Assembly: GCA_027483245.1 (NCBI GenBank) | Contig: JAIXVB010000265.1 | Span: forward strand, 1 to 55,607 | Direction: 5' to 3' | From: Verrucomicrobiaceae bacterium | GTDB taxonomy: Bacteria > Verrucomicrobiota > Verrucomicrobiia > Verrucomicrobiales > Verrucomicrobiaceae | DNA: 55,607 nt | Part shown: piece by piece, positions 27,216 to 53,636 of the stretch | Layout of the letters: each line of letters opens with the position of its first letter | Position numbering within the stretch: the first letter of the stretch is position 1 | Notes under the pieces: model-generated | The model's database searches: none | What the model was told of the DNA's origin: nothing | The model's input: only the letters and a program-made list of their open reading frames with translations | Translations under genes and position numbers: made by a program

Positions 27216-28490
27216 CTAAAATGGCTGTTTCAGCCACCGCTTCAGCTTATCCTCAATTGTAAACCGACTGGTGGCAAAACGCTCACGGCTACGGGCAATG
27301 AGCCGCTGCCGACGGCCTAAATAGGTTTCAATGGGGGGCAGGAGGCGGGCACGCTGAAAGTGGAGCGCACCATTGGCTGACTGATTTCGAATCAGGGTCT
27401 CATAGCGTGGCAGATCCACGAACTGACGAGGTTGGAATTCCTCGCCAAACTCTCCATGCAGGTGCTCGGCATCATCGAACCCGATTCTGAAAGCGATCAA
27501 TGTTCCCACATTTCCAAACACCGCATCCCGAACAGTGGGGGATAGCTGAGCAATGTATTGATGACTCAGCGTTAAATTCAGTCGATATTTACGTGCCTCA
27601 GCCAGGATGGCCGTGAACGACTCAGTCGCGAAATTTTGGAATTCATCCACGAAGAGATAAAAGTCGCGTCGCTCATGCTCTGGCTGTCGGTTCCGGGCCA
27701 TCGCAGCGAGCTGGAACTGCGTGACAAGCAGAGAGCCGAGCAGATTGGCTTTGTCATGGCCGATCTCTCCTTTCGCCAGATTGGCAATGAAAATGCGTCC
27801 CTCATCCATGACGAAAGGAATGCTCACCTTGCTACGCACCTGGCCAATGATGTTGCGAATGATAGGAGAGAGCAGCAGCTGACCCACTTTATTCTGGATG
27901 GGAGCAATGGCCTCACGACGGAAGCGGGGTTCCCAGCTCTCAAACTCGTTCTCCCAAAATTCCTTCAGGAAGGGATCACTGATCTGATGAACGACCCATT
28001 GTCGATAGATGGAATCCGTCAGGAGACGGTTCAAACCCAGCAGTGACGTATTCGGGCAGTGGGCGAGTGCGGCCACCGCGTTATGCAAAATGAATTCGAG
28101 CCGAGGCCCCCAGCTCTCGTGCCACAGGCTTTTAAAGGCACTGACAATACTGGATGCCACAAGTTGCCGATCTTCCGGCTTCGTTTGAGTCAGCAAATTC
28201 AGGCCAATGGGGAAGTCACGATCACCGGGATAAAAATAGACCGTTTTTTCGGCGCGCGCAGGCGGGATGTGATCCAGCAATTCCTCAGCCAGATCCCCAT
28301 GAGGATCAATGAGGCCCACACCATGTCCTTGCTGAATCAGTTGAAGAATCAGATTCCGTAACAGTGTCGTTTTACCAGAACCCGTCTTCCCGATGACGTA
28401 AGTGTGATATCGCGAATCACTCACCTCAAAATCGAACGGCACCTCGCCGCCCCAAGCCTGCCTCATGCCGATGTGAAGTTGATTATCCAT
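27216..28490 (-). CDS. T4SS coupling-protein/HerA-like DNA-translocase ATPase (no TM region)
   Basis: YHTYVIGKTGSGKTTLLRNLILQLIQQGHGVGLIDPHGDLAEELL...FYLFVDEFQNFATESFTAILAEARKYRLNLTLSHQYIAQL. Confidence 0.88.
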   Translation of the reverse strand: MDNQLHIGMRQAWGGEVPFDFEVSDSRYHTYVIGKTGSGKTTLLRNLILQLIQQGHGVGLIDPHGDLAEELLDHIPPARAEKTVYFYPGDRDFPIGLNLLTQTKPEDRQLVASSIVSAFKSLWHESWGPRLEFILHNAVAALAHCPNTSLLGLNRLLTDSIYRQWVVHQISDPFLKEFWENEFESWEPRFRREAIAPIQNKVGQLLLSPIIRNIIGQVRSKVSIPFVMDEGRIFIANLAKGEIGHDKANLLGSLLVTQFQLAAMARNRQPEHERRDFYLFVDEFQNFATESFTAILAEARKYRLNLTLSHQYIAQLSPTVRDAVFGNVGTLIAFRIGFDDAEHLHGEFGEEFQPRQFVDLPRYETLIRNQSANGALHFQRARLLPPIETYLGRRQRLIARSRERFATSRFTIEDKLKRWLKQPF

Positions 28491-28755
28491 GGTCAAGCCA
28501 CCCAAGCCAGCCGCCGCTCCATGAATTGATCACCCTGGCGGAAGCACCCCTCGTTAATATGATGCGAGCCCGGCAATGCGCCGGGCAAACGCTTTTGGAC
28601 GAACCCGGCGGGTAATCAGCGACTGGCTTCGGCGGCTGAATGATGAAGTAATTATAGCACAGACGCCATCAAGCACTTAGATCGCTTTGAACCCTCACTG
28701 TTCTTTCAGCACATATAAGCAGGTTCTAGATGTTCCCGCAAGATATACGAACAGA

Positions 28756-31011
28756 TTAAAAAGCGCGGCCAACGACCTCAAGACACGCCAAATCCTTCCA
28801 CAATTCGAAGCCTTGGGTCTCCATCTCTTTCAACGAGTAAATGAACGCAGACGCTAGCTCGGCACCGCCTGCTAACTGCTCTCCAAATTGCTTCATGAAG
28901 GCCGCAGCATAGGCAGCACCCACCGGAAAGCGTGCGCAAACACAATAACGCGCTCCTGCCTTTATAAGATCAGGCGCTGCACCAACCGGATAGTCTGACC
29001 AAGTAACTTCATAGACTCCGGAATTGCATGCGGAGAGCACTACAACATCAGATTTTATCTGATCTGGAAAAATATCATTGGCGGCTTTACTTCCATCTTT
29101 CACTTCAAGAAACAATGTCTTCTGTCCAGTATTCCAGTCCTCTTTTAGTTCGCCGTGACAGGACACCAAAACTATATGTTCTCGACATATAGCAGCCTCA
29201 ATATCTCTTGAATTGCAATCAAGAACAAAGTGTCCATCTGCACCGAAAGCTTCAGCAAACACCCTGGCCTCAGTATTAAGGTCCACCGCCCCAGCACTTC
29301 CGTTGCCAAGCGCAGTGCATGCTCGCTTGATTACCCGAGTCTGTCTGTCGTGCAGCAATAGCCCAAAACCCGTCGTGCATGGTAGTTGATCCCAAGGAAT
29401 GCCCAAATGATGAAACAAGGCTCTCCAGGGCACGTTATGGAGAATGCTATTGGGAAGGATTGCTTTGATCATGAGGCCGCCAATTTCACCCCTAAGTTTC
29501 GCGCCAAAATCATGTATAAATTGAGGCAGCGCCGACTCACCTACGTCTTTGTGAAGCTTACCTGGAATGAGGCGTATCTCATTGAGCAAGCTCTGGTTGG
29601 CGGTGGAATCGTCTGGGAGCGGAAGGGAGACAGTCTGGATCGACTCCGACTTAACAATAAAAGCAACCAGATCAGGTGGCAAAAATGCTATCACAAGAAT
29701 TGCTTCTTGGTCTTTTAGCTCCGATTGGATAGAACGTAGATGGGTGCAATCAACCGCATCCGCCCGTTCTCCCAGATGGTTTGAATTGACGATCCGGCCC
29801 ATGATGCTCGGATCAACTTCAATTGAGTAACCCAATGCCCGACCTGCCTCGAATGCTGTCAATGCTTCATCCAATCTGCCCGTCTCGATTAGCTTCCTAG
29901 ACAAAAAGCGAAAGTGCTCATGCATAGTATATGATGCAGCCCGAAAGTCTTCACCGATTGACGGCTTTCGCAATCTTTCAAACCAAAGGTGGGCCCCCGT
30001 TATGAGGATATTCAGAACTTCGTCTATTGATGCGCCTGCAGCTTCTCTGAGTTGTGCCATAGGCAGCCTGAGCCGCGCTGGGCTGGGATCGGATGAGTCC
30101 AGATTCGACTCTATTCGAATTGCTGCGGCAACTGCCTGATTGCCAACAGCCACGTCTCCGCGATCTACTGCGAGGGTCGCTTTAATACATCTACGAATAT
30201 AAGCTGTTGAAAAGCGTCCTTGATTTTGAGCCTCTGCGGCTGCTTCCTCCAGAATGACATATGGATCGCCATCCGTTAGCAGCAAAGGATCTAAACGAAT
30301 GATTGCTATCTGAATTCGACGAATCTGGTTTTGATCATTTGCATGTCTCGCGATGGGAAGCGCCTCCTGAAGAGCCATCCACGCATCGTTAAAACGTCCT
30401 AATTCCGTCAAAACTAGCCCGTAATTGGTAAGCGTCTCCGCCATTCCCACTCTGTTTCGGTGTGCGTATTTGCGGTAAATGTCGAGCGCCGCTCGAAGGC
30501 AGTCGATGGATGCGTGAAGATTTCCGATCTCAAGAAGGGTTCCTCCCCAGCTATTGAAGGCGTGACCAGACTCTATTTCCAAGTCTTCAGCAAAGTCTGG
30601 GAATATTTCCATCAACTTGCGCGCATAACCAACGGCCTTGTTTAAAAAGCGAATCGCTTCATGTTGACGTCCCTGCCGGGATACACTCTCACCGAGGTTG
30701 CGGGCAAACTGAGCACAAGAAGGAGGGTGGGGGCAACCGTACTTGTCAAAATGGTCTATCGCCTCGCTGGAGCGTTGCTCGGATTGCTGATATTGTCCGA
30801 GATGTAAAAGAACGAGGCCGCTGTTACCACGAGCCAATCCATAGCAAGGAGAGTCAGCCGACTCCGATTCTAAAAGCGGCAGGGCATCGTGGAGTCTGCC
30901 TTCCGCCAATTCCTGCATTCCCTCAATGTAATTAAGGGTTAACTGATGTCCGGGCGTGTAGTGCCGCATAATCTCTGGATTAGCATTGATCTGTTCTATG
31001 GAAAGCATCAT
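28756..31011 (-). CDS. TPR-CHAT (caspase-HetF-associated-with-TPR) protease-like protein
   Basis: N-terminal TPR repeats (GRLHDALPLLESE...YGLARGNSGLVLLHLGQYQQSEQ...); C-terminal CHAT dyad: His codon 29155-29157 (VLVSCHGEL), Cys codon 29026-29028 (VVVLSACNSG). Confidence 0.88.
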   Translation of the reverse strand: MMLSIEQINANPEIMRHYTPGHQLTLNYIEGMQELAEGRLHDALPLLESESADSPCYGLARGNSGLVLLHLGQYQQSEQRSSEAIDHFDKYGCPHPPSCAQFARNLGESVSRQGRQHEAIRFLNKAVGYARKLMEIFPDFAEDLEIESGHAFNSWGGTLLEIGNLHASIDCLRAALDIYRKYAHRNRVGMAETLTNYGLVLTELGRFNDAWMALQEALPIARHANDQNQIRRIQIAIIRLDPLLLTDGDPYVILEEAAAEAQNQGRFSTAYIRRCIKATLAVDRGDVAVGNQAVAAAIRIESNLDSSDPSPARLRLPMAQLREAAGASIDEVLNILITGAHLWFERLRKPSIGEDFRAASYTMHEHFRFLSRKLIETGRLDEALTAFEAGRALGYSIEVDPSIMGRIVNSNHLGERADAVDCTHLRSIQSELKDQEAILVIAFLPPDLVAFIVKSESIQTVSLPLPDDSTANQSLLNEIRLIPGKLHKDVGESALPQFIHDFGAKLRGEIGGLMIKAILPNSILHNVPWRALFHHLGIPWDQLPCTTGFGLLLHDRQTRVIKRACTALGNGSAGAVDLNTEARVFAEAFGADGHFVLDCNSRDIEAAICREHIVLVSCHGELKEDWNTGQKTLFLEVKDGSKAANDIFPDQIKSDVVVLSACNSGVYEVTWSDYPVGAAPDLIKAGARYCVCARFPVGAAYAAAFMKQFGEQLAGGAELASAFIYSLKEMETQGFELWKDLACLEVVGRAF

Positions 31012-31039
31012 GTCAGATGGTCAAATTATTCACATTCTC

Positions 31040-32068
31040 TCATTTCTCGGGTTTCTGTGATTTTGATCCTACCGATTGCACTCCGGAAGCTTTAGCTTTC
31101 TTGGCCTTTCTTTTAGTTACTTCGTATCGCATACGGTCTCGGAGAGTTTCAAGCTGGGTGTTCCCGAGAGCGTCCAGGGATGATATTGGACTAGGCAATT
31201 CCAGTTTTTGCGTAGCAAAGGAGTAAAGCTCATTTTTCGACCAGTTGAGCACTCCTACATGGGTATAAATAGTCCGGGTGAGAGTGTTTCGATATGCCTG
31301 TGGATTTGCACGCTTGAACTTTTTATCTTTACTGGCTCGGTATTGTTGCAGCCAAGAGAGAGCTTTCTCATACTGTTCTTTGAGCAACGACTGCAAACCG
31401 TGTTCTGTGGTGTGAAATTCTTCGTTAAACTGTGACCAGATGATGCCAAACCACTTTCCGCGCAGCTTCTTGGCCTCGTCGTCGGGAAGAATGGATGCTT
31501 TTACAGCCATTCGGTTAACCACCTCTTCATGAATCTGCCGAAGTCTCGCCCGTTGTTCCTCGGTGATGTGGCGTTCATCTCCGACGAATTTGGGTTTTGG
31601 CGGACTTGTTAATGATTTTCGGTTGGCCTTGCTCGCGCCCATCAGAGATCGAAGACCTCCAATAATGTTTGCCCACGCTTCGTCTTCGTTATGCCAGTGT
31701 CGGCTCACAACGGGTTTCCCGTCTTCGGGCAGGGCTTTGAAGCGGCGCAATGCATCAATTTTCCAGTCGCAATCCCGCACGATTAGCGGAACTACAATTG
31801 CTTTCCGTTTAGCCTGCCGTTCACATGCATGTTTAAACTCCTTCGCAAAGCAGTAGTCAGAATGAATGAACGAGGCACTCACGAGCAGCAGAAAAACGTC
31901 TGCTTCGTTCATGGCTGTTTGGATGTGATCCTCAATCACTCCGCCAGCATGAATCTCGCGATCAGTCCAAGCCTCAAGCAGGCCTTCCCGTCGCAAAGCA
32001 GAAAGGTGGACGAGCAACTTGCGCAGCAGATCTGCGTCTTCGTGGGAATATGAGATGAAGGCTTTCAT
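31040..32068 (-). CDS. TIR-domain protein with ORF6C-like C-terminal region
   Basis: MKAFISYSHEDADLLRKLLVHLSALRREGLLEAWTDREIHAGG...VFLLLVSASFIHSDYCFAKEFKHA (putative catalytic Glu77); C-terminus ITEEQRARLRQIHEEVVNRM...GKWFGIIWSQFNEEFHTTEHGLQSLLKEQYEKALSWLQQYRA. Confidence 0.88.
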   Translation of the reverse strand: MKAFISYSHEDADLLRKLLVHLSALRREGLLEAWTDREIHAGGVIEDHIQTAMNEADVFLLLVSASFIHSDYCFAKEFKHACERQAKRKAIVVPLIVRDCDWKIDALRRFKALPEDGKPVVSRHWHNEDEAWANIIGGLRSLMGASKANRKSLTSPPKPKFVGDERHITEEQRARLRQIHEEVVNRMAVKASILPDDEAKKLRGKWFGIIWSQFNEEFHTTEHGLQSLLKEQYEKALSWLQQYRASKDKKFKRANPQAYRNTLTRTIYTHVGVLNWSKNELYSFATQKLELPSPISSLDALGNTQLETLRDRMRYEVTKRKAKKAKASGVQSVGSKSQKPEK

Positions 32069-32319
32069 ACGGCTAGGCGGCTGGGGGAGTAGGCCTGGAA
32101 TCGTGTTGCGTCCTTCGCCTCCCGGATGAGATCAGATCCTTCGCTGAGCCAGGTTCGGAGGTGGTTGGTAGTATCGGATGCGTGCATGCAGTGGATTCCT
32201 ATGAGAGCAGGTAATGATTTGGTGGCAAGGGGGATGCATGAGAGTAGTGGCATCGACGCAAGTTCTATGATTCGAAGCATTATGCGCATGTTGCTACGTA
32301 TCGGAGGGGCTGTGGCTGC

Positions 32320-32530
32320 CAGGCCCTCGTCGTGACTTTTCAACAGCCGTCGTGTTCTGTGACGGGCGCAGCACGCGAGGTGTGACCCCCACGTGTTTGG
32401 GCGAGGGCAGTCCGGCAGTTTTGCCGGCTGGCCGCAGCGGCCGACTTCACGCGTTTGGTCATTGGCCGAGGGCGGGTAGCCCGGTTCCGGCATGACCTTT
32501 ATTCTCAGTCGGTCAAGTCCTTGCCGCTGA
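32320..32530. repeat. Dispersed ~210-bp direct repeat, copy 1
   Basis: CAGGCCCTCGTCGTGA...GTGACGGGCGCAGCACGCGAGGTGT...GCGAGGGCAGTCCGGC...CCGGTTCCGGCATGAC...GGTCAAG.CCTTG aligns collinearly with 54386..54600. Confidence 0.85.
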
Positions 32531-32743
32531 AGAAAAACGCGTGAAGTCGGGCGTGAGCCCGAACACGTGGGGGCCCCGTGCGACGGCCCTGGCGGCATTT
32601 TGCCGCTCAGTAAGGCCGTTCTGTAGGCGTCGATCTCGCGCCCCATTCGCGAGCCCCTACATACCATGTAAATAGGGGAAAAGTGAGGGGGCATCCATGT
32701 CGGACAATATGTGTTTCCCGACATGGAGCCAGGGAACTGGCTC
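32383..32743. ncRNA. Candidate structured non-coding RNA / DNA hairpin element
   Basis: Stems read directly: 32386-32402/32557-32573 (16 of 17 bp); 32441-32456/32535-32550 (16 of 16); 32412-32417/32422-32427; 32583-32588/32614-32619 enclosing 32592-32597/32601-32606; 32635-32640/32648-32653; 32654-32659/32673-32678; 32695-32703/32718-32726; 32726-32732/32737-32743. Confidence 0.55.
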
Positions 32744-32827
32744 AAAATCACGCTTTCGGACAAGCCTGTGTCTTTGAACGAATCTTTGGTCGCCCGTAGT
32801 TGGTGTCCTTGACCTGTCTCTGATAAC

Positions 32828-32850
32828 AGAAAAAGCTGCTTCGCAGCAGC
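32828..32850 (-). terminator. Intrinsic terminator downstream of ParE-type toxin
   Basis: GCTGC-TTC-GCAGC; minus-strand TTTTTCTG tail. Confidence 0.7.
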
Positions 32851-32936
32851 CTCTTAAAGATCGGATTATTGACGGATTCGAAGTCGTGTGATGTAGCGCT
32901 GAGCAGCCGGTGGGCAAGGGTCTGAACGCTTGCTAG

Positions 32937-33257
32937 TCAGAACATCTTTTTTGCTTCGCTGATTCGCCCGCTCCAGTAATAGGGACGGCGCTTGGCATGT
33001 GCGATGGCCAGAATGACGACCTGCTGATTCCAGATCATGTAGGCGATGTAATACTCGCCAAAACGCGGTTTCAAATTCGCACGACGGACAGAGCCGCGAC
33101 GGATATTAAATAGCAGTGGACTGGCCAGAATGGTGTCCAGGTAGCGAAAGAATGCGGAGTCAAATTCGTCCGCCAGCTCCGGATCAATCTCCAGGTAATA
33201 GTGGAATGCCTCGTCGAACTCCTTCTGGGCTCCCGGATGGATTTGAAACGAGGTCAT
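32937..33257 (-). CDS. RelE/ParE-family toxin
   Basis: FQIHPGAQKEFDEAFHYYLEIDPELADEFDSAFFRYLDTILASPLLFNIRRGSVRRANLKPRFGEYYIAYMIWNQQVVILAIAHAKRRPYYW. Confidence 0.9.
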   Translation of the reverse strand: MTSFQIHPGAQKEFDEAFHYYLEIDPELADEFDSAFFRYLDTILASPLLFNIRRGSVRRANLKPRFGEYYIAYMIWNQQVVILAIAHAKRRPYYWSGRISEAKKMF

Positions 33258-33535
33258 GCCTGACGGCTTCGGGTGAGCCCTTTTTGAGCAAATAGCTGGT
33301 CCACGTGACGCATGAAGCTTTCACCAGAAATGAGTTCGACCGTGCCGCTTTCAACTTCTTTCACCCGTGCATCAATCTCGGCATCCCACTCAGCTTCAAT
33401 TGAAGCTGCGCTGTCCTCAGGATCAGCCTGAGTGGCCATTGGAAAGTCCCGCTGCAGCTCAAGAAACAGCTCCTTGGCTTCATCAGGAGCCAAGTGGCTA
33501 ATTTCCTTTTTGATGTGTTCGACGGTTGCTGTCAT
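33254..33535 (-). CDS. Addiction-module antitoxin (unstable antitoxin family)
   Basis: HLAPDEAKELFLELQRD...SIEAEWDAEIDARVKEVESGTVELISGESFMRHVDQLF; ATGA overlap with toxin. Confidence 0.85.
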   Translation of the reverse strand: MTATVEHIKKEISHLAPDEAKELFLELQRDFPMATQADPEDSAASIEAEWDAEIDARVKEVESGTVELISGESFMRHVDQLFAQKGLTRSRQA

Positions 33536-33579
33536 AGGGGCATTCTACCAAATAGACGAGATTTGTCGAGGGGATCAGT

Positions 33580-34416
33580 TCATCGCAGAGAGTCATCCTC
33601 TCTCACCTGCTGTTCCAAATGGCGAAGGGCGGTGAGCATGGCTTCCCTGCCCTGAGGTTCGCGTTTTCCTTTGATGGTGGCAATGCAGCTCCCCTGCCGA
33701 TGTGTAAACTGGACGACCGAAGTCGCACGCGGTTTTCGAGGTTCCGAGCCTCCTTGATTGCGATGCTTTTCGATCCGGGAACGGATGTCGCGTGTGGTCT
33801 CCCCTGCCCTGGCTGCTGACACAAGCTCTTCCTGCACTTTGGAATCATCGACCGTGGCGATCCGCTGGGCCATTTCATAACCAATGCCCGGAGCGTTACG
33901 CAACTCCTCCTGAAGGCGTGCAGGAAGCTCAAGCACCCGGAGCATGCTGCTCATCCACTGCTCGCTCTTCCCTACTTGTCGGGCGAGTTCGCGCTGGGTT
34001 GCTACAGAGCCGGAATCGAGCAAGGAGCGTAAAGTTTCAGCCAATTCAATCGCCCCAATATTTTCACGCTGGATGTTAGAGATCAAGCTTTTGAATCGGC
34101 GAGTCGTTTGATCATCTGCGTCCCGAACGATGACCTCAACCTCAGAGAGGCCAACAGCTTTGGCCGCACGGTAGCGCCGATGCCCCGTGAGAATTCGATA
34201 ATGTTCTCCGTCTTGGGTGACTGTGATCGGCTCGATAATGCCATGACGACGAACAGACTCGATCATGTCCTCCATGTTGAGGAAGATCTTGCGTTCGTTG
34301 TCAGGATCTTCCTGGAGTCTGTCAATGGATACGATGAAGCGGCCTCGTTTTGGCAGGCCTCCTACAAGACCTGACTTGACCATATCGAGACGGCTTTTGC
34401 CCTGGGGTAATTTCAT
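33580..34416 (-). CDS. parB: ParB/RepB/Spo0J-family partition protein
   Basis: DRLQEDPDNERKIFLNMEDMIESVRRHGIIEPITVTQDGEHYRILTGHRRYRAAKAVGLSEVEVIVRDAD...ISNIQRENIGAIELAETLRSLL. Confidence 0.93.
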   Translation of the reverse strand: MKLPQGKSRLDMVKSGLVGGLPKRGRFIVSIDRLQEDPDNERKIFLNMEDMIESVRRHGIIEPITVTQDGEHYRILTGHRRYRAAKAVGLSEVEVIVRDADDQTTRRFKSLISNIQRENIGAIELAETLRSLLDSGSVATQRELARQVGKSEQWMSSMLRVLELPARLQEELRNAPGIGYEMAQRIATVDDSKVQEELVSAARAGETTRDIRSRIEKHRNQGGSEPRKPRATSVVQFTHRQGSCIATIKGKREPQGREAMLTALRHLEQQVREDDSLR

Positions 34417-37564: not shown

Positions 37565-40348
37565 CTATTTTCGTAGCTGGAATCTGATGCCCTGCTGTTC
37601 AATCATGCCATCATTCGTGAATTGAAAGTTAAACTCCCTGCCCACAAAAGCAGCTGCACTTCGTTCACATACGAGGAGAAATTTAGGCTGACCGTAATTT
37701 TGCGCCCACCCCTGCACCTTGACGTAGAGACTCGCGCTTTGCCCCCCTTGGGAGACACCTCCAGAGCATTCATAGATGGCACGACAGGTATTTAATTCTT
37801 TGCCATCCTTGGACAATTCACGATACGTCCGGTGCCAATGGAGGCCGTTCATGAAACTGATGTGATCGGTGATTTCGATTTCTTTTCGGTCGCCCACCAT
37901 AGTCGTGGCCACATAATAGGGACGCGGCACGGACATCGGCACTCCCTGAGTTCTTTGTGGAACCGCTTTTGGTTTTTCTTCAGGGGGCTTCGCCGCGCTC
38001 TTGCTGTCCTGCACATCGTACACTTTTGCTCTCTGGCTGGTTATGCGCAGTTTTCCGTCCTGAATACTAACGACCATCGTCAAGTCCACCTTGCCTCGAT
38101 GCCACTCACCAGCGGCATTTTCGTTTGAAAACTCAATCGAGTACCCTGCAATCCACCCATTTGCATTTTTCGTTAGAACGATGTCGCTGATGATTTTCTC
38201 CACGCCCTTTGGCCATTTGACTCGATGAGCACTTTCCTCGACCAAAATTGCGCTCGAAAGAATCCGCCCTTTATCCAAGAAATCGACAGTCGAATCATAA
38301 TTGGAAACCATTCCCTCAACGTCTCCCTTGGACGCCATGGCGTGATGAGCCGTCAAAAAAGTCTTCACATCATTATCAGTAATTTGCGCGACGGGAGCTT
38401 CGGTGGGGACAGTCTGGGCTTTGGGCTTTGCCGGGCGAGGACGCTCGGATGCCTTTACAACCACCAATGATGACCCTTGTTCAGCCAAGGTTAAAAGCGC
38501 AGGAGACTCGATATATTCCAGTTCAGATGTTGGGAGCTCACGGCGAATTGGCACAGGTTGCTCCCACCAATCCTTGAGCTCTGGAACTTTGCAAAGATCC
38601 ATGGAGCCCGCATCCCATGAGTGGAGTGAGGAAATAACATCGGTTGATGAGAGGGCACGATCAAATGTTGTGACAACAAAAACCGCTTTTTTTCCCTTCC
38701 ATTCAAGGATGCGAACTATAGCCTTAACCTGACTATAATTCGGCCCGACAGTCTCTTTCGTCAGGGGATTTTCAAGCGGCGCGTAAATGAATGCACACAA
38801 TTTTTTCAGTGCAACTTTGAGTCTGACGACTTCGTCCTTAATCTCCTCAAATGCTACAGGCATCGCCACTTCGAGATGATATTCAGGTGCCTGAACGACC
38901 TTCATGTAGGTGACCTCAGCCCTACTATCCGAAATCCGAATAATCTTCGAACCATCAGGCACACAAAGCACGCGCATCCCCTCCTTGACACCCAAAGAAC
39001 TAAATCCCATGGCAATATCAGAGGCTGGATGAGTCAATGCGCAAACTGTATCTCCTCCCAACCTCCAAGCGTCGTCTGGACTTCGGCGGGAAGCAGGAGT
39101 TGCACTCCGAATCAGAGTTTTTAGATCGACCTTCCAGTCACGTTCTTCTGGCACTTTGACGCGCGGCCCCTTCGTCCAAAACTGTTTCGTTGGTTCATCA
39201 GCCTTATCCAAAAAAGCTGAATCCCTCGCAGGTTTCAATGTCAGGTCGTCCAGATTTAGTACTAGCGATGCCTCATCATTCGGGTAAAAAATCAATTCTT
39301 TTGGCTGCCACCAAAATACATCTCCAGTTGGAATGTCTCGATTTTGTGGCCTTGGCAGTTCAATTCCTTTCAAGGAGTCGATTTTTAGAATCCACACCCT
39401 CCGATTTTCATCACCTTCACCGGCAACACATGCCAAAGCTTTTTGATCTGGTGCCCAAGCAAGACACGTTACTGAACCGAAGGAAACTGGGATTTCTGCC
39501 GTCTTTTTGAATCTGTTTAGATCAAAAATGACCGCCTGAGTCTGGGTAGAAGATCTTTCAAGGTAGGCGAAAAAGTTTCCGTCTGGCGATAGGCTAGGAG
39601 CCGCCTCGCTAGCGACATTCTCAATCGTCTTTGTGAAGTCCGGCTGAATCGTCCCAATTTTGGCAGTTTTAATGGACAAAGGCGCATCATAACGAAATGA
39701 GGGGGGAGCCGGAGGTGGAACCGCAGAAGTTGAAACAGGCACAGGGTCTGTTTTCATAGGTCTTCCAAGTATGGAGAGGGGAGAAGCAAGCCCGACTATA
39801 CTGACCATCATCAAGGCTCCAGTCATCCAGCTTAAGCCCATTACAGTAACATCGCTTTTTCCACTTTCCTGAATGGACAAGTGCGGTTTGAGAATTCGAC
39901 CTCCCAGAAGTCCACCAATGAAACCACAAAGGATAGCAGGAAGAATGCTGGACAAACTCACCCAAAAACTGAGCCACATGTGATGCCTTGCCAGCATATC
40001 CACATGGGCGTTCTCAGCGCTGCGCACATCCGCTGTAGCGAGAAAAGTTAGCAGTCCACCAGTAGCAAGTGCGGAAAACAATCCCGCTTGGATACCGATC
40101 CTCGCACCCATGCCGCCAGAAAGTCGCTTTGATCGCAGATCTAAATAGCTGATTAAAGCCGCTATTGCGCCAGCAATAAAGGCCAATGACAAGACAAGAA
40201 GAATAAGCAGCTTTGCCGGGGTAACTCCTAACAACTCAGTTCTGGTAATATCTCTGAAACAGATACCGAGCCCTCCCGTGGCGATTCCCACCGCACACGC
40301 ACGAATTCGTGAAGAATCAGTAATTTTCACTTGGGTATGAGTCGCCAC
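37565..40348 (-). CDS. Large hypothetical membrane protein: multi-TM N-terminus, beta-propeller-like middle, NTF2-like segment
   Basis: TM segments (LLILLVLSLAFIAGAIAALISYL etc.), ...PSLSPDGNFFAYLERSST...ITCLAWAPDQKALACVAG (WD/TolB-like), NDVKTFLTAHHAMASKGDVEGMVSNYDSTVDFLDKG. Confidence 0.7.
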   Translation of the reverse strand: MATHTQVKITDSSRIRACAVGIATGGLGICFRDITRTELLGVTPAKLLILLVLSLAFIAGAIAALISYLDLRSKRLSGGMGARIGIQAGLFSALATGGLLTFLATADVRSAENAHVDMLARHHMWLSFWVSLSSILPAILCGFIGGLLGGRILKPHLSIQESGKSDVTVMGLSWMTGALMMVSIVGLASPLSILGRPMKTDPVPVSTSAVPPPAPPSFRYDAPLSIKTAKIGTIQPDFTKTIENVASEAAPSLSPDGNFFAYLERSSTQTQAVIFDLNRFKKTAEIPVSFGSVTCLAWAPDQKALACVAGEGDENRRVWILKIDSLKGIELPRPQNRDIPTGDVFWWQPKELIFYPNDEASLVLNLDDLTLKPARDSAFLDKADEPTKQFWTKGPRVKVPEERDWKVDLKTLIRSATPASRRSPDDAWRLGGDTVCALTHPASDIAMGFSSLGVKEGMRVLCVPDGSKIIRISDSRAEVTYMKVVQAPEYHLEVAMPVAFEEIKDEVVRLKVALKKLCAFIYAPLENPLTKETVGPNYSQVKAIVRILEWKGKKAVFVVTTFDRALSSTDVISSLHSWDAGSMDLCKVPELKDWWEQPVPIRRELPTSELEYIESPALLTLAEQGSSLVVVKASERPRPAKPKAQTVPTEAPVAQITDNDVKTFLTAHHAMASKGDVEGMVSNYDSTVDFLDKGRILSSAILVEESAHRVKWPKGVEKIISDIVLTKNANGWIAGYSIEFSNENAAGEWHRGKVDLTMVVSIQDGKLRITSQRAKVYDVQDSKSAAKPPEEKPKAVPQRTQGVPMSVPRPYYVATTMVGDRKEIEITDHISFMNGLHWHRTYRELSKDGKELNTCRAIYECSGGVSQGGQSASLYVKVQGWAQNYGQPKFLLVCERSAAAFVGREFNFQFTNDGMIEQQGIRFQLRK

Positions 40349-42264: not shown

Positions 42265-42833
42265 AGCGGCGGGATCACGGCGGAGACAGGTCCTCAGTCG
42301 GCCTGTCTCCGTCCTTCGCAGTCCTTGCTTCGCCCAAAGACGACTCAAGCGGCTTGCATCCAGGATTGACAAGATGCGCAGGATTCACCGGATTTTTCAG
42401 TTCGTTCAATCCTATTCGCCGCAGCTTGAGTTCGTCGTTCGGTCACGCGTGCTGCGGGACCGTCTGGAAACGTGATCGCTGGCTGAGTTCAAAGAACATG
42501 CTGAAGCATGAACAACGAACCAAGAACCAAGAACCGCACGACCAGCCCCCACCTCTGCAGCCCCCGAACAACCCGGCAGCGAAAAACCCCAGCGCGCCAA
42601 ACCCGGCTTCATCAGCAAAGACCTCCTCCCCGCAAAGGCGAGCAGCCGCAGGATCTCCAGCGCCGCCTCAAACGCTTCCGTGAGCAAGTGCCCGGCGGGT
42701 TGTGAGCAGTCCGCAGTCTCCTCCACTCCTCGTCTTCCTTCCTTGCGCTCTGCGCAATTCCTTGCCTTCGGAGTCATTCCCCGCTTGGATGCGGGAAATC
42801 TCTACTGCGCTTTCCCTTTTTGCCTTCCTCTGG

Positions 42834-45800
42834 ATGGAAATCATCGACAACATCAATCAGCTCCTCGGGGAGAACCTCAAGCAGACTCTCACGCCGGGTT
42901 CCAAGCTGCGCATTGCAGCGTCCTGTTTCTCTATTTATGCCTTCGAGGCGCTGAAGGCAGAGTTGGAGAAAATCGATTCGCTGGAGTTCATCTTCACATC
43001 CCCCACCTTTGTCCCGTCAGATGTGACGGACAAACTCAGGAAGGAACATCGGGAGTTTCACATTCCTAAACAGCAACGCGAGCGCAGTCTCTGCGGCACC
43101 GAGTTTGAAGTTCGCTTGCGCAATGAACTGACACAAAAAGCCATTGCCCGAGAGTGTGCAAATTGGATGCGTCGGAAGGCGCAGTTCCGCTCAAATCGCA
43201 CCCAGGCTCCCATGCAGCAGTTCATCACCGTGAGCGGTGGCGAGGGCAATGCCGCTGCTTATATGCCACTGCATGGCTTCAGTGCTGTCGATCTAGGTTA
43301 TGAGAAGGGCAATGCCGTTTCTAACTTGGTGAACAAGATGGATGAGCCGCCAATGACGAGCACCTATCTCGCCCTGTTCGAGCAGATTTGGAACGACAAG
43401 GAGAGATTGGAAGATGTGACGGCCAAACTCTGCGAGCACATCGCCTCCATCTACCAGGAGAATTCCCCTCAGCGCATCTACTTCCTGATGCTCTACAACA
43501 TCTTCAATGAGTTTCTCGAGGACCTCAATGCGGATGTGTTACCGAACGACCTCACCGGCTATCAGGACAGCCTCATCTGGAAAAAGCTGTTCAACTTCCA
43601 GCGTGATGCCGCCACCGGCATCATCAACAAGCTGGAGACCTACAACGGCTGCATTCTCGCCGACAGCGTGGGGCTTGGTAAGACCTTCACCGCACTCGCT
43701 GTGGTGAAATATTACGAGCTGCGCAACAAGTCCGTGCTTGTGCTCTGCCCGAAGAAACTGGCTGACAACTGGCTCACTTACAAAGGCAACCAAGTCACCA
43801 ACATCTTTGTCAAAGACCGCTTCGGTTATGACGTGCTCTGCCACACCGATCTGCTGCGTGAGAGTGGTTATTCCTTCGGCATGCCGCTCAATCGCATCAA
43901 CTGGAGCAACTACGACCTCGTTGTGATTGACGAGTCACACAATTTCCGCACCAATGATCTCTACCGCGAGCGTGAGACCCGCTACCAGCGCCTGCTAAAT
44001 CAAGTCATCCGCCAGGGCGTGAAGACGAAGGTGCTCATGCTCTCGGCCACGCCGGTAAACAACCGATTCTCCGACCTCAAGAACCAGCTCGCGCTGGCTT
44101 ACGAAGGCAATCCTGAAAACCTGAATTCCAAGCTGCGCACCGAGAAAAGTATCGACGAAATTTTCCGCCGGGCGCAAGCAGCCTTCAATGCGTGGTCAGC
44201 CCTGCCACCGAATGAGCGCACAGCCGCCACCATCCTGGGCTCCCTGGACTTCGATTTCTTCGAGGTGCTTGACAGTGTCACCATCGCTCGCTCACGGCGG
44301 CACATCCAGACCTACTACGACACGAAGGACATCGGCACTTTCCCAGAGCGTTTGAAGCCGCTTTCCTTCCATTGCCAGCTCACGCAGCGTAAAGATGTCA
44401 TAGGCTTCAATGACATCTTCAATCAACTCACTCTGCTAAAGCTGGCGATCTACGCCCCTCTCAGCTACGTCCAGCCGAGCAGGCTTTTCAAATACGAGCC
44501 GGAATACGAAGAGGATGACGATGGGGATGGCTCAAGCAATCTTGGCCAGAGCGGCCGTGAAAAGGGCATTCAGGCGCTCATGACGGTGAACCTGCTCAAG
44601 CGCCTCGAAAGCTCCGTGCATTCCTTCCGGCTCACCCTGAAGAGCCTCGCGGACAACCATCACCACACGATGAAGAAGATCACGGCCTTCAAGAAGACGG
44701 GGAAAGATGCCACTTTTGCGGATGTCTCCCCTTCCTTTGCCGATGCCGAACCCGAGGACGAAGGCGAGTTTCCCGATCCTGAGGACGCCCAAATCGGCAA
44801 GAAGGTGCAGATCAGTCTGAGCGACATGGATCTCCCGGCATGGGAGCATGAATTGCGAGCTGACCTTACCATCATTGAGGCTCTGTGGGAGGAAATGCAC
44901 AAGATCACTCCAGCGGATGATGCCAAGCTCCAGCACCTCAAGACCACCGTCCTGAGCAAGCTCGCTTCGCCCATCAATCCAGGGAACAAGAAAGTGCTCA
45001 TCTTTACTGCCTTTGCCGACACCGCTAATTACCTCTTTGATCAACTCGCTCCCTTCTTCCTGGAAAAAAATCACCTCCATACGGCCAAGGTGATTGGTGG
45101 CAACACCACCAAGAGCACCCTCACCAAGCATTACGATTTCCAATCGCTCCTCACGCTCTTCTCCCCACGTTCGAAAGAGAAAGCCGCCATCCTGCCGAAG
45201 GAACCTGCCGAGATCGACATCCTCATCGGCACCGATTGCATCTCAGAGGGTCAGAACCTCCAGGACTGCGACTACCTCATCAACTACGACATCCACTGGA
45301 ATCCTGTGCGCATCATCCAGCGCTTTGGCCGTATTGATCGCATTGGTTCCAAGAACCAATGCATCCAGCTTGTCAACTACTGGCCGGACATCTCGCTCGA
45401 TGAATACATCAAGCTCAAGGAGCGCGTCGAAAACCGCATGGTCATCGTGGATGTCGCAGGCACTGGCGACGACAACCCACTCGATGCCAGGGCGAATGAC
45501 CTAGCCTACCGCCGTGAGCAGCTTCGCCGCCTTCAAGAGGAGGTCATCGAGCTGGAGGATCTCAAGACCGGCATCTCCATCACCGATCTTGGCCTGAACG
45601 ATTTCCGAATGGACTTGCTGAACTATGCGAAGGCTCATGGGGACCTTTGCAACATGCCCAATGGCATGCACGCGGTCGTGCCTGCTGCCCCTGAGCGCGG
45701 ACTGCCGCCCGGTGCCATCTTTGCCCTGCGGAACCGCAATGACGGGGTAAACATCAACCGGCAGAACCGCTTACATCCCTACTACCTCCTTTATGTCGGG

Positions 45801-46223
45801 CAGGACGGGCAGGTGATCGTCAATCACACCGAGCCGAAACGTCTCCTCGACCTCGCCCGCGCTGCTTGCAAAGAACGCCCTGACCCCATCCCGGAAGTCT
45901 ATCAGCCGTTCAACAAGGCCACCAAGGACGGACGGAGCATGGATGCCTATTCCGAGCTGCTAAACCAGGCCATCCGCTCAATGATCGAGTTGAAGGAGGA
46001 GAAGGACATCGACAGCCTCTTCTCGGGCGGCAAAACCAGCGCTCTGCTTAACACCATCAGCGGGCTGGATGACTTCGAGTTGATCGCCTTCCTCGTCGTC
46101 TATGATTCGGCCTCGTCTGATGGCGGCACGACACGCAAGGTCATTGAGACGCTGCTCAAGAAGCGGGGGGTAAAGGTCACCAGTGAACTCATTTATGAGA
46201 TCATGGAAAAGGAGAGAATCTGA
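42834..46223 (+). CDS. SF2/SNF2-type helicase with N-terminal domain (possibly degenerate PLD-like)
   Basis: GCILADSVGLGKTFTALAVVKYYE, VVIDESHNFR, LMLSATPVNN, IGTDCISEGQNLQDCDYLINYDIHWNPVRIIQRFGRIDRIGSKN. Start Met chosen as MEIIDNINQLLGENLKQ. Confidence 0.9.
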   Translation: MEIIDNINQLLGENLKQTLTPGSKLRIAASCFSIYAFEALKAELEKIDSLEFIFTSPTFVPSDVTDKLRKEHREFHIPKQQRERSLCGTEFEVRLRNELTQKAIARECANWMRRKAQFRSNRTQAPMQQFITVSGGEGNAAAYMPLHGFSAVDLGYEKGNAVSNLVNKMDEPPMTSTYLALFEQIWNDKERLEDVTAKLCEHIASIYQENSPQRIYFLMLYNIFNEFLEDLNADVLPNDLTGYQDSLIWKKLFNFQRDAATGIINKLETYNGCILADSVGLGKTFTALAVVKYYELRNKSVLVLCPKKLADNWLTYKGNQVTNIFVKDRFGYDVLCHTDLLRESGYSFGMPLNRINWSNYDLVVIDESHNFRTNDLYRERETRYQRLLNQVIRQGVKTKVLMLSATPVNNRFSDLKNQLALAYEGNPENLNSKLRTEKSIDEIFRRAQAAFNAWSALPPNERTAATILGSLDFDFFEVLDSVTIARSRRHIQTYYDTKDIGTFPERLKPLSFHCQLTQRKDVIGFNDIFNQLTLLKLAIYAPLSYVQPSRLFKYEPEYEEDDDGDGSSNLGQSGREKGIQALMTVNLLKRLESSVHSFRLTLKSLADNHHHTMKKITAFKKTGKDATFADVSPSFADAEPEDEGEFPDPEDAQIGKKVQISLSDMDLPAWEHELRADLTIIEALWEEMHKITPADDAKLQHLKTTVLSKLASPINPGNKKVLIFTAFADTANYLFDQLAPFFLEKNHLHTAKVIGGNTTKSTLTKHYDFQSLLTLFSPRSKEKAAILPKEPAEIDILIGTDCISEGQNLQDCDYLINYDIHWNPVRIIQRFGRIDRIGSKNQCIQLVNYWPDISLDEYIKLKERVENRMVIVDVAGTGDDNPLDARANDLAYRREQLRRLQEEVIELEDLKTGISITDLGLNDFRMDLLNYAKAHGDLCNMPNGMHAVVPAAPERGLPPGAIFALRNRNDGVNINRQNRLHPYYLLYVGQDGQVIVNHTEPKRLLDLARAACKERPDPIPEVYQPFNKATKDGRSMDAYSELLNQAIRSMIELKEEKDIDSLFSGGKTSALLNTISGLDDFELIAFLVVYDSASSDGGTTRKVIETLLKKRGVKVTSELIYEIMEKERI

Positions 46224-46231
46224 ACACGGCC

Positions 46232-46642
46232 ATGTTCCTCCTCGACATCAATATACTGATTGCCCTGGCTGATCCAGATCATGTTCATCATGATCGGGCG
46301 GAAGCTTTCTTCCTGGCGAATCACAAGGCTGGCTGGGCGACGTGTCCGATCACCGAAAATGGATTCGTTCGGATCATCAGTCATCCGAAGTATCCGAAGG
46401 GACCGGGATCACCGGACCTTGCTCGGGACGTGCTGCGGCAACTTTGTGCTCATGAGGGGCATCGATTCTGGCCTGACGATGTCTCGCTGCGCAGCTTTGG
46501 CAGCCTGCCTGTTTCCAAGCATCTGACGGACCAATATCTTCTGAGCCTTGCCATCCATCGCCAAGGCAAGCTGGCTACGTTTGATGGTCACATCAACGCC
46601 GCACTCATACCGGGTGGAACGGCGGCCTATGTTGTGATTTAG
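46232..46642 (+). CDS. PIN-domain (VapC-type) toxin
   Basis: MFLLDINILIALADPDHVHHDRAEAFF...WATCPITENGFVRI...LTDQYLLSLAIHRQGKLATFD. Confidence 0.88.
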   Translation: MFLLDINILIALADPDHVHHDRAEAFFLANHKAGWATCPITENGFVRIISHPKYPKGPGSPDLARDVLRQLCAHEGHRFWPDDVSLRSFGSLPVSKHLTDQYLLSLAIHRQGKLATFDGHINAALIPGGTAAYVVI

Positions 46643-46648
46643 ACGGCC

Positions 46649-47305
46649 ATGTTCTCCTACCCCAAACAGGCCGAGTTCAACCGCTTGCTCCCGAAGAGCA
46701 AGATCTACGCTCATGCCAAGCCGGGGAAGGCGGTGAAGGATCTCTTCGTCTCGCAGATCGGGGAGATCGTCTGGAAATACAAGCTTTCGCCGGAAACCAT
46801 CAATCTTCCTGCACGCCACGGCATCACCGAGATCCAGGTGTTCGAGATCGCTCTGAAGGGCAAGGAGTTAGATGAGGATGTCCTGCGCACCATCGACAAG
46901 ACCATCCCGTTCCCCATCCTCTTCCAGCTTACCCATGGCGGACGCATCCGCTTCTCCGCCACTTACAAGCGCCCCAGTGATTCCGACTCCACGAAATGGG
47001 TCATCGAGGCCAGCTTCATGACGGATTGGCAGCCAGCCATGCAGGAACGTCCATCGCTTCCCGTCGCCCTTGATCTCGCCAGCCTCTACGAGCACCTCAT
47101 CCGCCGCCACCTTCCGCTGCCGCAGCGCTCCGGTGAGAGCATCCGCGACCACGTCGCCCGCTACACCGCCATCCAGACCAAAGAAAAGGAGTGCCAGCAA
47201 ATGGAAGCCCGCCTAAACAAGGAAAAGCAGTTCAACCGCAAGGTGGAGATGAACGCCGCGCTGCGCAGCCTCCGCCAAGAACTCTCCGACCTTCATCATT
47301 CCTAA
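46649..47305 (+). CDS. DUF4391-like protein
   Basis: MFSYPKQAEFNRLLPKSKIYAHAKPGKAVKDLFVSQIGEIVWKYKLSPETINLPA...VQVFEIALKG; family and RM context recalled from general knowledge. Confidence 0.7.
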   Translation: MFSYPKQAEFNRLLPKSKIYAHAKPGKAVKDLFVSQIGEIVWKYKLSPETINLPARHGITEIQVFEIALKGKELDEDVLRTIDKTIPFPILFQLTHGGRIRFSATYKRPSDSDSTKWVIEASFMTDWQPAMQERPSLPVALDLASLYEHLIRRHLPLPQRSGESIRDHVARYTAIQTKEKECQQMEARLNKEKQFNRKVEMNAALRSLRQELSDLHHS

Positions 47306-47320
47306 TTCACACTTTCAGCC

Positions 47321-49171
47321 ATGGACAAGCTCAAGCTCCACACGCCGGACCTCACGGCCCAGAACATCGAAAAACTCGCCGCCCTGTTTCCGAACTGCGT
47401 CACGGAGACCACGGATGCCAAGGGCAAGCTCAAGCGCGGGATCGACTTTGACCAGCTCCGCCAGGAACTCTCCGACCATGTGGTGGAGGGGCCGCGTGAG
47501 CGTTATCACCTGGACTGGCCCGGCAAACGTGAGGCCCTGCTCGCCGCCAATGCCCCCATCGCCAAGACCCTGCGCCCCTGCCGGGAGGAGAGCGTGGACT
47601 TCGACACCACCAAGAACCTCTTCATCGAAGGCGACAACCTCGATGCGTTGAAGCTGCTTCAGGAAACTTACCTCGGGAAGGTGAAGCTCATCTACATCGA
47701 CCCGCCTTATAACACGGGGAACGACTTCATTTATGAGGATGACTTCGCGGAGGATACTAACAGTTTCATGGTCCGATCCAATCAGCGTGACTCTGAAGGC
47801 AACCACCTGATCGCCAACACTTCATCAAATGGGAGATTTCATTCAGATTGGATCTCGATGCTCTACTGTCGTCTGAAAATTGCCTGGAATATGCTGGCTG
47901 ATGATGGCCTTCTAATGGTGAGCATAGACGACAACGAAATCGGAAACCTAAGGCGGATTTGTGATGAGCTTTTCGGTGTCGACTCCTTTTTGATTACCTG
48001 TGTTTGGAGACGCAGGCAAGTTGCTGATAGTCGCAATGATGACAGGGCATCAACGGATCACGAATATGTGGTATGTTACAAAAAGCCCAACGCTGTATTG
48101 AAGGGCATTCCCATTGATCAGGACAAATACACAAATCCAGACAATGATCCGCGAGGTCCATGGTTTAGTGACAATCTCACTGGCATAGCCAACCAGAAAG
48201 AACGTCCAAACCTACACTATGACTTGGTGAATTCCGAAACGGGGCGTCGATACCCGCCTTCACCTACTAGAGGTTGGATGTGCGCACCGGAAACAATGGA
48301 GCGTCTCGTTGCCGAAAATCGAATTCTGTGGCCCAACAAGGTCGATGGCAGGCCTCGACTGAAGAAGTTCCTTTTGGAAGCGCGCACGCTAGATACGGGC
48401 ATCTCCTCTTGGTTTGATGATGTTGGATTTACAACCGAAGGCACCAAAGTAATCCAGGACCTGTTTGGTGAGAAGATTTTTCCATTTTCAAAGCCGCTCA
48501 CCCTCCTCAGTAAACTTGTAGTTCAGGCAACCCCAGCTGGGGAAGGTATCATTCTCGACTTCTTTGCCGGCTCAGGCACTACGGCCCATGCTGTAATTCA
48601 AGCTAACGCTGCGGATCAAGGGAATCGGCGGTTTGTAATGGTTCAGATTCCCGAATCGACGGGACGCGAAGATTTCGCTTCAATCTGTGAAATTACTAAA
48701 GAACGCATTCGCCGAGCCGGAGCCAAGATCAAAGCCGAGAACGCCACCACGGCCCCCAACCTCGACATCGGCTTCCGCGTGCTCAAGATCGACACGTCCA
48801 ACATGAAGGACGTGTATTATGCCCCGGATGAGGTGAAGCAGGGGCAGCTCGAACTGCTGACGGACAACATCAAGGAGGAGCGCACACCGGAAGACCTGCT
48901 CTTCCAGGTGCTGGTGGACTGGGGCGTGGATCTAGCCCTGCCGATCACTCAGGAGACGATTGCCAAGAAGAAGGTCTTCTTTGTGGATGGCAATGCCCTG
49001 GCCGCCTGCTTTGACCCGAACATCACCGAGGAGCTAGTGAAGGAACTGGCAAAGAAGAAGCCCCTGCGCGCCGTCTTCCGCGACAGCAGCTACGGCAGCG
49101 ACAGCGTCAAAATCAATGTGGAGCAGATCTTCAAGCTCCTGAGCCCCGGCACGGAACTGAAGTCCCTGTAG
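47321..49171 (+). CDS. mod: Type III restriction-modification DNA methyltransferase (Mod)
   Basis: KLIYIDPPYNTGNDFIYEDDF (DPPY) and IILDFFAGSGTTAHAVIQAN (FxGxG), beta-class order. Confidence 0.95.
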   Translation: MDKLKLHTPDLTAQNIEKLAALFPNCVTETTDAKGKLKRGIDFDQLRQELSDHVVEGPRERYHLDWPGKREALLAANAPIAKTLRPCREESVDFDTTKNLFIEGDNLDALKLLQETYLGKVKLIYIDPPYNTGNDFIYEDDFAEDTNSFMVRSNQRDSEGNHLIANTSSNGRFHSDWISMLYCRLKIAWNMLADDGLLMVSIDDNEIGNLRRICDELFGVDSFLITCVWRRRQVADSRNDDRASTDHEYVVCYKKPNAVLKGIPIDQDKYTNPDNDPRGPWFSDNLTGIANQKERPNLHYDLVNSETGRRYPPSPTRGWMCAPETMERLVAENRILWPNKVDGRPRLKKFLLEARTLDTGISSWFDDVGFTTEGTKVIQDLFGEKIFPFSKPLTLLSKLVVQATPAGEGIILDFFAGSGTTAHAVIQANAADQGNRRFVMVQIPESTGREDFASICEITKERIRRAGAKIKAENATTAPNLDIGFRVLKIDTSNMKDVYYAPDEVKQGQLELLTDNIKEERTPEDLLFQVLVDWGVDLALPITQETIAKKKVFFVDGNALAACFDPNITEELVKELAKKKPLRAVFRDSSYGSDSVKINVEQIFKLLSPGTELKSL

Positions 49172-49218
49172 CGGATGCTTGGTTGACATCAAGTTGACAA
49201 CAGGTTTACACTGACGCC

Positions 49219-50013
49219 ATGAGCTATCCAATTGAGACCGTTCCCATTTGCTTCACCGACTCAACCAAGCAGGGGACCATCCCTGTCTGGGCCAAGAAGT
49301 ATAACGCCAGAGGAGTGGCCTATGCCAAGGTGATGGAGGGACAAAGGCCCGGGGTGGTGATTGTTCATGCCAAGAACCCTGGAGAACTTCAAAAACATGC
49401 CCAGCAAACGCGACGCTTGGCGGGAAAGCTAATTCAGGGAAAATCTCCGTTCCAGGTAGTCGTTCATTTTGACAAAGGAACCAAGGGGCAGGAGGTCACA
49501 GAAATGGCAGGTGTCTTCAAGCTATTTCCACGTTTGGCTCCCCGCCTGAATTTCTCCTGGAGTCGTCAGAATCTGAAAGACCGCGTGCTGGAGGCGGCAG
49601 CCAAATACGCCGCCGAAGAAGAAGAGCGTCAAAAGGAATTCCCCGACGCACTCGCTCAAGCGAAGGAGGTGATTGCAGCGACTAGGCAGCTTCGATCGAG
49701 TAGCGGACGGCTATCTGCGACAGCGATTGCCTCTGCTTTGGGGCTCAAGGATGCCCAGATGGCGGCACTGCTTGGCCGCTCCCGACAGGCTCTGGCCAAA
49801 ACGCCAGATGCACCTGCCATTCAGCAGGCGCTGATTCCCTTCGAGCGCATCGTCCGACTGTGCGCCGTGCTCAAAAAGCCCAACTTCCTGGCCTGGCTCC
49901 AAAGAAAGAATCCCCATCTGGATGAGCTTTCCCCCCTTGAGGTCATCACTTCAGGCAGACCCGAAGTGGTGGCCGACTTGGTGGAAGCCATGCTGACTGG
50001 AACTCCCTCCTGA
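49219..50013 (+). CDS. Xre/MbcA/ParS-like antitoxin with an N-terminal extension
   Basis: C-terminus ...IPFERIVRLCAVLKKPNFLAWLQRKNPHLDELSPLEVITSGRPEVVADLVEAML resembles the antitoxin C-terminal domain paired with RES toxins. Confidence 0.65.
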   Translation: MSYPIETVPICFTDSTKQGTIPVWAKKYNARGVAYAKVMEGQRPGVVIVHAKNPGELQKHAQQTRRLAGKLIQGKSPFQVVVHFDKGTKGQEVTEMAGVFKLFPRLAPRLNFSWSRQNLKDRVLEAAAKYAAEEEERQKEFPDALAQAKEVIAATRQLRSSSGRLSATAIASALGLKDAQMAALLGRSRQALAKTPDAPAIQQALIPFERIVRLCAVLKKPNFLAWLQRKNPHLDELSPLEVITSGRPEVVADLVEAMLTGTPS

Positions 50014-50021
50014 ACGACACC

Positions 50022-50573
50022 ATGGCCTCTCCTGACCTGAAAACTCTGCTGATTAGCGCTCCCAGGCGTTCTTTCAGCGGGCGCTTGGTGCGTTGCATTC
50101 CCCAGCTCACCTTTCAGAAAGGAAAACCACCAAGTTATCTTTTCACCTCAGGTGTGGTGAACCGCTGCAACCCTGCGGGAATCAAGACTCTGTATTTGGC
50201 TGAGGAGCGTGAAACTGCACTGGCGGAATACGACAGCTATTATATCACACCCGAACCCCAGCTGATCTATTATGCGGACTATGCGGCTGGCGCTGTCATC
50301 GACCTGGGAGATCAGGCAACATGCGATCATTTCGGGCTCAGTGACGATGATTTTTTCAAGGCCTTCAGGTTGGCCACGGCTCCAACAACTCTTCAGCAGT
50401 TAGGGGCAGAGATCGCTGCACAGAAGGTGGTCACAGCGATTCGTTTCCCTTCGAACGCACGCCATCAAAAAGGCGAGTTGGGCTACAACTTTGCTATTTT
50501 CCCTGGCTCACTCCAGTCACCGGATTCCTTGAGTATTCTTGGCAACCCCGCCCCTCTAGAAAGCTGGCCGTAG
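50022..50573 (+). CDS. RES-domain toxin
   Basis: YLFTSGVVNRCNPAGIKTLYLAEERETALAEYDSYY...VTAIRFPSNARHQKGELGYNFAIFPGSL; RES pattern, adjacent antitoxin. Confidence 0.85.
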   Translation: MASPDLKTLLISAPRRSFSGRLVRCIPQLTFQKGKPPSYLFTSGVVNRCNPAGIKTLYLAEERETALAEYDSYYITPEPQLIYYADYAAGAVIDLGDQATCDHFGLSDDDFFKAFRLATAPTTLQQLGAEIAAQKVVTAIRFPSNARHQKGELGYNFAIFPGSLQSPDSLSILGNPAPLESWP

Positions 50574-50606
50574 ATAGGTTAACACATTCAAGAACTCCGT
50601 TTTCTT

Positions 50607-53600: not shown

Positions 53601-53636
53601 GACAGCTACGGAAAGCTGATGGAGCTGGTGAAGTGA
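50607..53636 (+). CDS. res: Type III restriction enzyme Res subunit
   Basis: [47 protein letters not shown]-terminal [14 protein letters not shown]...[10 protein letters not shown] nuclease motif; TTG start. Confidence 0.94.

Follow-up and report, generated by a model that had tools for sequence, protein, structure and literature searches.

Type IV Thoeris, as summarised in PMC12847820 (citing Rousset et al. 2025), relies on a TIR protein whose product, N7-cADPR, activates a caspase-like protease that then degrades cellular proteins. TIR signalling to a caspase-like protease is already known in this form, a point missing from the earlier note on the DNA studied here. CHAT proteases, for their part, act in type III-E CRISPR systems, where cleavage of Csx30 leads to abortive infection, and in Borvo (PMC10952713), and a target protein of diversity-generating retroelement (DGR) 2 of Thiohalocapsa PB-PSB1 carries TIR and CHAT domains in a single chain (PMC10907252). 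Bacteria have two main groups of enzymes related to those of cell death in animals and plants, TIR NADases and caspase-like proteases.

The window analysed here is one whole contig (55,607 bp) of a genome in 758 contigs and has no terminal overlap. It encodes a TIR protein and a TPR-CHAT protein side by side, and together they are probably a small immune unit, a two-gene abortive-defence cargo. If the genes act together, they link a TIR NADase and a caspase-like protease in a minimal two-gene unit whose order of action is testable. The earlier note had recognised no named system in this pair, and that impression stands: PADLOC and model scans gave no fitting system, and no description of the pair was found in the open-access literature searched. 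The closest known kind is type IV Thoeris, in which, as PMC12847820 describes it, the genes for a TIR enzyme and a caspase-like protease likewise stand together; by the same description the locus differs in that its protease is of the TPR-CHAT kind and its TIR protein carries an ORF6C-like module. As in Thoeris, the TIR protein finds its best PADLOC match in ThsB (E=5.3e-39, confined to aa 3–152) and has an invariant Glu77, whereas no ThsA of type I or II (SIR2-type or TM-macro) was found by Pfam among the neighbours, which are TPR-CHAT, TrwB and a toxin-antitoxin pair.

Other described systems resemble the locus in part. Craspase (TPR-CHAT, Csx30) has the same TPR-CHAT architecture with a possible substrate or executor next to it, but window scans showed no CRISPR or gRAMP genes, no gRAMP/Cas7-11 or Csx30/31 domain appeared among the neighbouring genes scanned, and a PDB sequence search gave no match to a Csx29 chain. 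Borvo (BovA) likewise employs a CHAT protein in phage defence; unlike Borvo, the locus has a TIR partner gene, and its BovA match is weak (E=0.0063, aa 610–708 only). The DGR 2 target also brings CHAT and TIR together in one predicted conflict system, but there both domains lie in one retroelement target protein, whereas here the genes are separate and there is no DGR. An FxSxx-COOH system with TIR-like and TPR proteins was considered and rejected (FxsC, 22.6 of 130 bits; FxSxx_TPR, 30.7 of 300 bits).

The two genes and their products

The earlier note had placed two genes on one strand, 28 bp apart, with catalytic residues in place, and the reanalysis agrees on each count; both reading frames are intact and free of internal stops. 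The features of the two genes are as follows.

31040–32068, minus strand: TIR gene (342 aa), a TIR domain plus an ORF6C-like C-terminal module (Pfam; homologs)
31838–31840, minus strand: codon of the catalytic-type Glu77, invariant in 40/40 aligned TIR sequences
31592–31615, minus strand: 8-aa linker insertion SLTSPPKP (aa 152–159) at the junction of the TIR domain and the ORF6C-like module (alignment)
31091–31582, minus strand: ORF6C-like module (aa ~163–326), from a weak ORF6C match and homologous segments elsewhere
28756–31011, minus strand: TPR-CHAT gene (751 aa; Pfam and our own CHAT profile)
28846–29271, minus strand: CHAT (caspase-like) core (aa 581–722; Pfam CHAT, 45 bits, and our own CHAT profile)
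29155–29157, minus strand: codon of the catalytic His619 (VSCHGEL), invariant against five other CHAT proteins
29026–29028, minus strand: codon of the catalytic Cys662 (LSACNSG), invariant against the same five

Pfam assigns TIR_2 to aa 4–109 of the TIR protein (E=5.8e-15), which is predicted to be an NAD+-consuming enzyme. Compared with its four nearest relatives, this protein has gained the Ser/Pro/Lys-containing linker and lacks a C-terminal module of ~90 aa, the linker difference being drawn from one alignment of five sequences; such a gain and loss would be expected if the protein had adapted to a new partner. The ThsB model, confined to the N-terminal part here, runs full length in two restriction-modification (RM)-linked TIR proteins of the order. 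In other genomes, segments homologous to the ORF6C-like module have matches to ORF6C and to phage anti-repressors; the module is also found without a TIR domain, once alongside an HNH nuclease domain and once in a protein resembling phage anti-repressors.

The TPR-CHAT protein matches TPR_12 (E=1.9e-20) and CHAT (E=9.2e-12), the latter (PF12770) at 45.4 bits against a cut-off of 24 and with both His619 and Cys662 present; TPR and CHAT are its only recognisable domains, and Pfam matched no nucleotide-binding domain. Its AlphaFold model, built from the single sequence, reached a pLDDT of 41 and was unusable for a fold search. As judged from sequence in the sets searched, the protein is an orphan: the family, order and phylum genomes (overlapping sets of 68, 357 and 388 genomes, respectively), plasmids, phages and viral contigs yielded no relative that aligns across more than roughly half of its length, and the best matches cover TPR stretches only or 70–170 CHAT residues at 24–37% identity. 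Plasmids gave TPR matches only and phage records zero matches. Genome and viral contigs were also scanned for patterns from the TIR protein, the TPR-CHAT protein or the TIR alignment; these scans, which depend on short exact peptide matches and are insensitive, likewise returned no relatives.

Relatives of the TIR gene and recurrence of the pair

Three order-level homologs share 55–57% identity with the window TIR protein over aa 1–327, and the four nearest relatives (genomes G389, G645, G454 and G513) are 55–61% identical. For G389 and G645 the identity is 55–57% across the TIR domain and ORF6C-like module, and for G454 it is about 61% across the TIR domain. The G389 gene stands between HsdM and HsdS, and its start overlaps the stop of HsdM; the G645 gene follows HsdM with the same start/stop overlap and precedes two genes matching the PADLOC candidates PDC-M65A and PDC-M65B (L157 1946–6622, with the TIR gene between HsdM and these two); the G454 gene overlaps a downstream HsdS, and the HsdM further upstream is 83% identical to that of G389; the G513 gene has no RM neighbour. 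Among the more distant stand-alone TIR genes, the one in G302 comes after HsdR-M-S, those of G630 and a second G454 locus after a type III-like N6/N4 methylase, the G059 gene after a type ISP specificity region and the G611 gene after an Eco57I/MmeI-type methylase. In 8 of the 12 stand-alone TIR loci inspected in the order and phylum, the TIR gene directly adjoins an RM modification or specificity gene; this clade is repeatedly associated with restriction-modification operons. Its members possibly serve as a back-up abortive module of RM systems. The RM-adjoining loci (L028, L157, L159, L160, L161, L164, L167, L036 and L033, in G389, G645, G454, G630, G059, G611, G302 and G115) involve type I, IIG, III and ISP systems, often with overlapping genes; the G115 case, a TIR-STAND gene after HsdS, lies beyond the count of eight.

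The window gene belongs to the same clade, but the RM-associated genes (G389, G645, G454, G302, G630, G059 and G611) follow or split modification or specificity genes with no CHAT gene, and the nearest of them have the extra C-terminal module. No CHAT gene lies next door to any of the nearest TIR relatives. Related TIR genes on plasmids are mostly without an obvious partner; one adjoins a reverse transcriptase (Microvirga, L119 2510–4451) and another a patatin-like phospholipase (Aliarcobacter, L127 3405–6336). From these RM-linked and partnerless relatives we infer that the TIR module swaps partners often and that its adjacency to CHAT was not inherited within the clade; since relatives sit in operons without any CHAT gene, the TIR protein is plausibly an executor by itself. 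An RM remnant upstream of the window TIR gene was considered and rejected, as the window holds no HsdM or HsdS match.

A neighbourhood survey for conserved adjacency, the check named in the earlier note, went against it: across everything searched, the pair turned up in a single genome. Of the 388 phylum genomes, 34 carry CHAT genes (48 matches in all, the window gene among them), and 0 of the 47 others lie near a TIR gene within about 5 kb on each side where the contig allowed, as scanned with a profile built from 40 relatives of the window TIR, which very distant TIR proteins could escape. Running the CHAT and TIR profiles over each other's neighbourhoods showed no recurrence, so an operon conserved across taxa was rejected; these reciprocal scans placed a sole CHAT gene near a TIR gene, in Calothrix, about 2 kb off, on the opposite strand and with genes in between. 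As a conserved system, the pair is unsupported. Within the window, gaps of 250 and 868 bp flank the pair, compared to 28 bp inside it; because short same-strand gaps are frequent on this contig, the 28-bp gap alone is weak evidence for an operon.

A cargo slot on a mobile element

The mobile-element setting proposed in the earlier note is confirmed by the flanks, which encode ParA, ParB, an Unstab_antitox/ParE pair, a TrwB-like ATPase, ArdC, Replic_Relax and a Toprim primase; together with a gene at the Rep position, these make up the backbone of the element as assigned by Pfam. Comparison to sister elements defines a cargo slot with the following parts.

27216–28505, minus strand: TrwB-like ATPase, the gene that bounds the slot on the right (Pfam; sister elements)
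28643–32385, no strand: the cargo insertion (limits approximate), flanked on both sides by sequence that sister elements conserve, empty sites among them
28651–28656, minus strand: TATAAT-like -10 element at the start of the conserved block on the right, before the TrwB-like gene (consensus resemblance only; position conserved across elements)
32315–32718, no strand: conserved palindromic repeat of ~0.35–0.4 kb at the entrance of the slot, shared by the 11 sister elements whose fetched sequence extends to it
32937–33535, minus strand: ParE-like toxin and Unstab_antitox antitoxin, on the backbone side of the slot (Pfam)

Relatives of the TrwB-like gene, 82–87% identical, were found in 12 other genomes of the genus, and the order Rep-ParA-ParB-repeat-slot-TrwB is kept in every fetched stretch long enough to show it, with ArdC and Replic_Relax mostly coming next. 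Eleven sister stretches reach the slot (the G042 contig ends before the repeat, which contains long inverted repeats). Three of these are empty sites (G052, G047 and G041), in which TrwB starts 235–261 bp after the repeat, and the boundaries of the window insertion coincide with blocks conserved in them, which places it at about 28643–32385. The other 8 of 11 bear cargo. G019 has an Ssp system, SspC and SspD with neighbouring genes; ubiquitin-like genes occupy the slots of G027 (E1/E2 type, of which G031 has a 90% identical copy) and G028 (E1/E2/JAB, beside a gene of metallo-beta-lactamase type); and the cargo genes of G050, G023, G026 and G032 have weak or no PADLOC assignment. This family of mobile elements, among which defence genes are exchanged, has a definable cargo slot that is empty in some members; in the window, only the TIR and TPR-CHAT genes can be recognised between repeat and TrwB. 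This isolation speaks most strongly for a joint arrival of the two genes; it is positional evidence and no proof of cooperation. The TATAAT-like box, by its resemblance to the consensus, suggests that cargo and transfer genes are transcribed separately.

The earlier note's candidate immune module is sustained in part: the genes are intact and form a discrete cargo in a slot that holds defence genes in sister elements, but the pairing does not recur. The variable slot region (window 28505–33580 and L191–L202) belongs to an element family of one genus, and some of its cargos are defence genes. A second copy of the entrance repeat (82%) lies at 54386–54594, about 750 bp past a type III RM island, and perhaps marks a second cargo site. 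That island (42702–53636, plus strand) encodes an SNF2-type helicase (PADLOC C3a139 HKD+Snf2 match), PIN and DUF4391 proteins, a type III methyltransferase, an Xre/MbcA-RES toxin-antitoxin-like pair and a type III restriction enzyme. Elsewhere in the window are an efflux/metal-resistance-type region (1060–22159, minus strand), with a heavy-metal P-type ATPase, two RND transporters, outer-membrane and membrane-fusion genes, a Metal_resist protein and an ECF-type sigma factor, and a 927-aa gene with no Pfam match (37565–40348, minus strand), which recurs upstream of Rep in several sister elements at 36–47% identity. An Rfam scan of the window gave no matches.

Possible orders of action

Our tentative preference, held at somewhat short of even confidence, is that the two genes form a single cargo unit, a small abortive module against phages or mobile elements, with a protease switch as its most likely wiring. 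The TPR array would hold the caspase-like TPR-CHAT protease in check until infection triggers it; the protease may then cut or otherwise release the TIR protein, the unusual linker being a possible site, and the released TIR protein would deplete NAD+ so that the cell stops. For this scheme we infer the enzyme activities of the pair, their cooperation, the trigger and the order of action. A single unit is favoured by the slot, in which the pair is sole cargo with boundaries at the empty-site blocks and defence genes in sister slots, by the intact catalytic residues and by the 28-bp gap between much larger ones. The protease as switch and the TIR protein as NAD+-depleting executor are favoured because TIR relatives act without CHAT and because this TIR protein has an altered linker and tail; cleavage wiring has a precedent in the CHAT protease that cleaves Csx30 in type III-E CRISPR (PMC10952713). 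Against a single unit stand a pairing seen in just one genome, the orphan status of TPR-CHAT, and the sister elements, whose slots can hold unrelated genes side by side. The stronger proposal, a stand-alone two-gene system in which TPR-CHAT cuts the TIR linker and protease-gated NAD+ depletion is distinct from Thoeris, Craspase and gasdermin systems, seems to us improbable.

The reverse order, in which the TIR protein senses infection and makes an ADP-ribose-type messenger that sets the TPR-CHAT protease to degrade cell proteins, would make the pair a CHAT analogue of type IV Thoeris; it is rather unlikely taken by itself, and as an order of action nearly as likely as the protease-first one. 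It draws on the ThsB match (E=5.3e-39), on adjacency and sole-cargo status, and on type IV Thoeris itself, in which PMC12847820 describes a TIR protein and an N7-cADPR-activated caspase-like protease in one operon; it sits less well with a ThsB match that stops at aa 152 here and spans other TIR proteins of the order, with a protease in which only TPR and CHAT were matched and no nucleotide-binding domain is recognisable, and with nearest TIR relatives that have no such effector next door. A serious third option, likewise on the unlikely side, is that the genes are independent neighbours, a lone RM-type TIR and a Borvo-like stand-alone CHAT collected successively in the slot. That the pair does not recur fits this, as do the promiscuity of the TIR relatives (beside type I, IIG, III and ISP RM genes, beside PDC-M65 genes, or alone) and the CHAT protease of Borvo (PMC10952713), to whose BovA the TPR-CHAT protein has its weak match (E=0.006). 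Two independent genes are harder to reconcile with a 28-bp gap on the same strand in a common insertion that holds no other gene, and with a TIR protein that has both lost and gained segments relative to its relatives.
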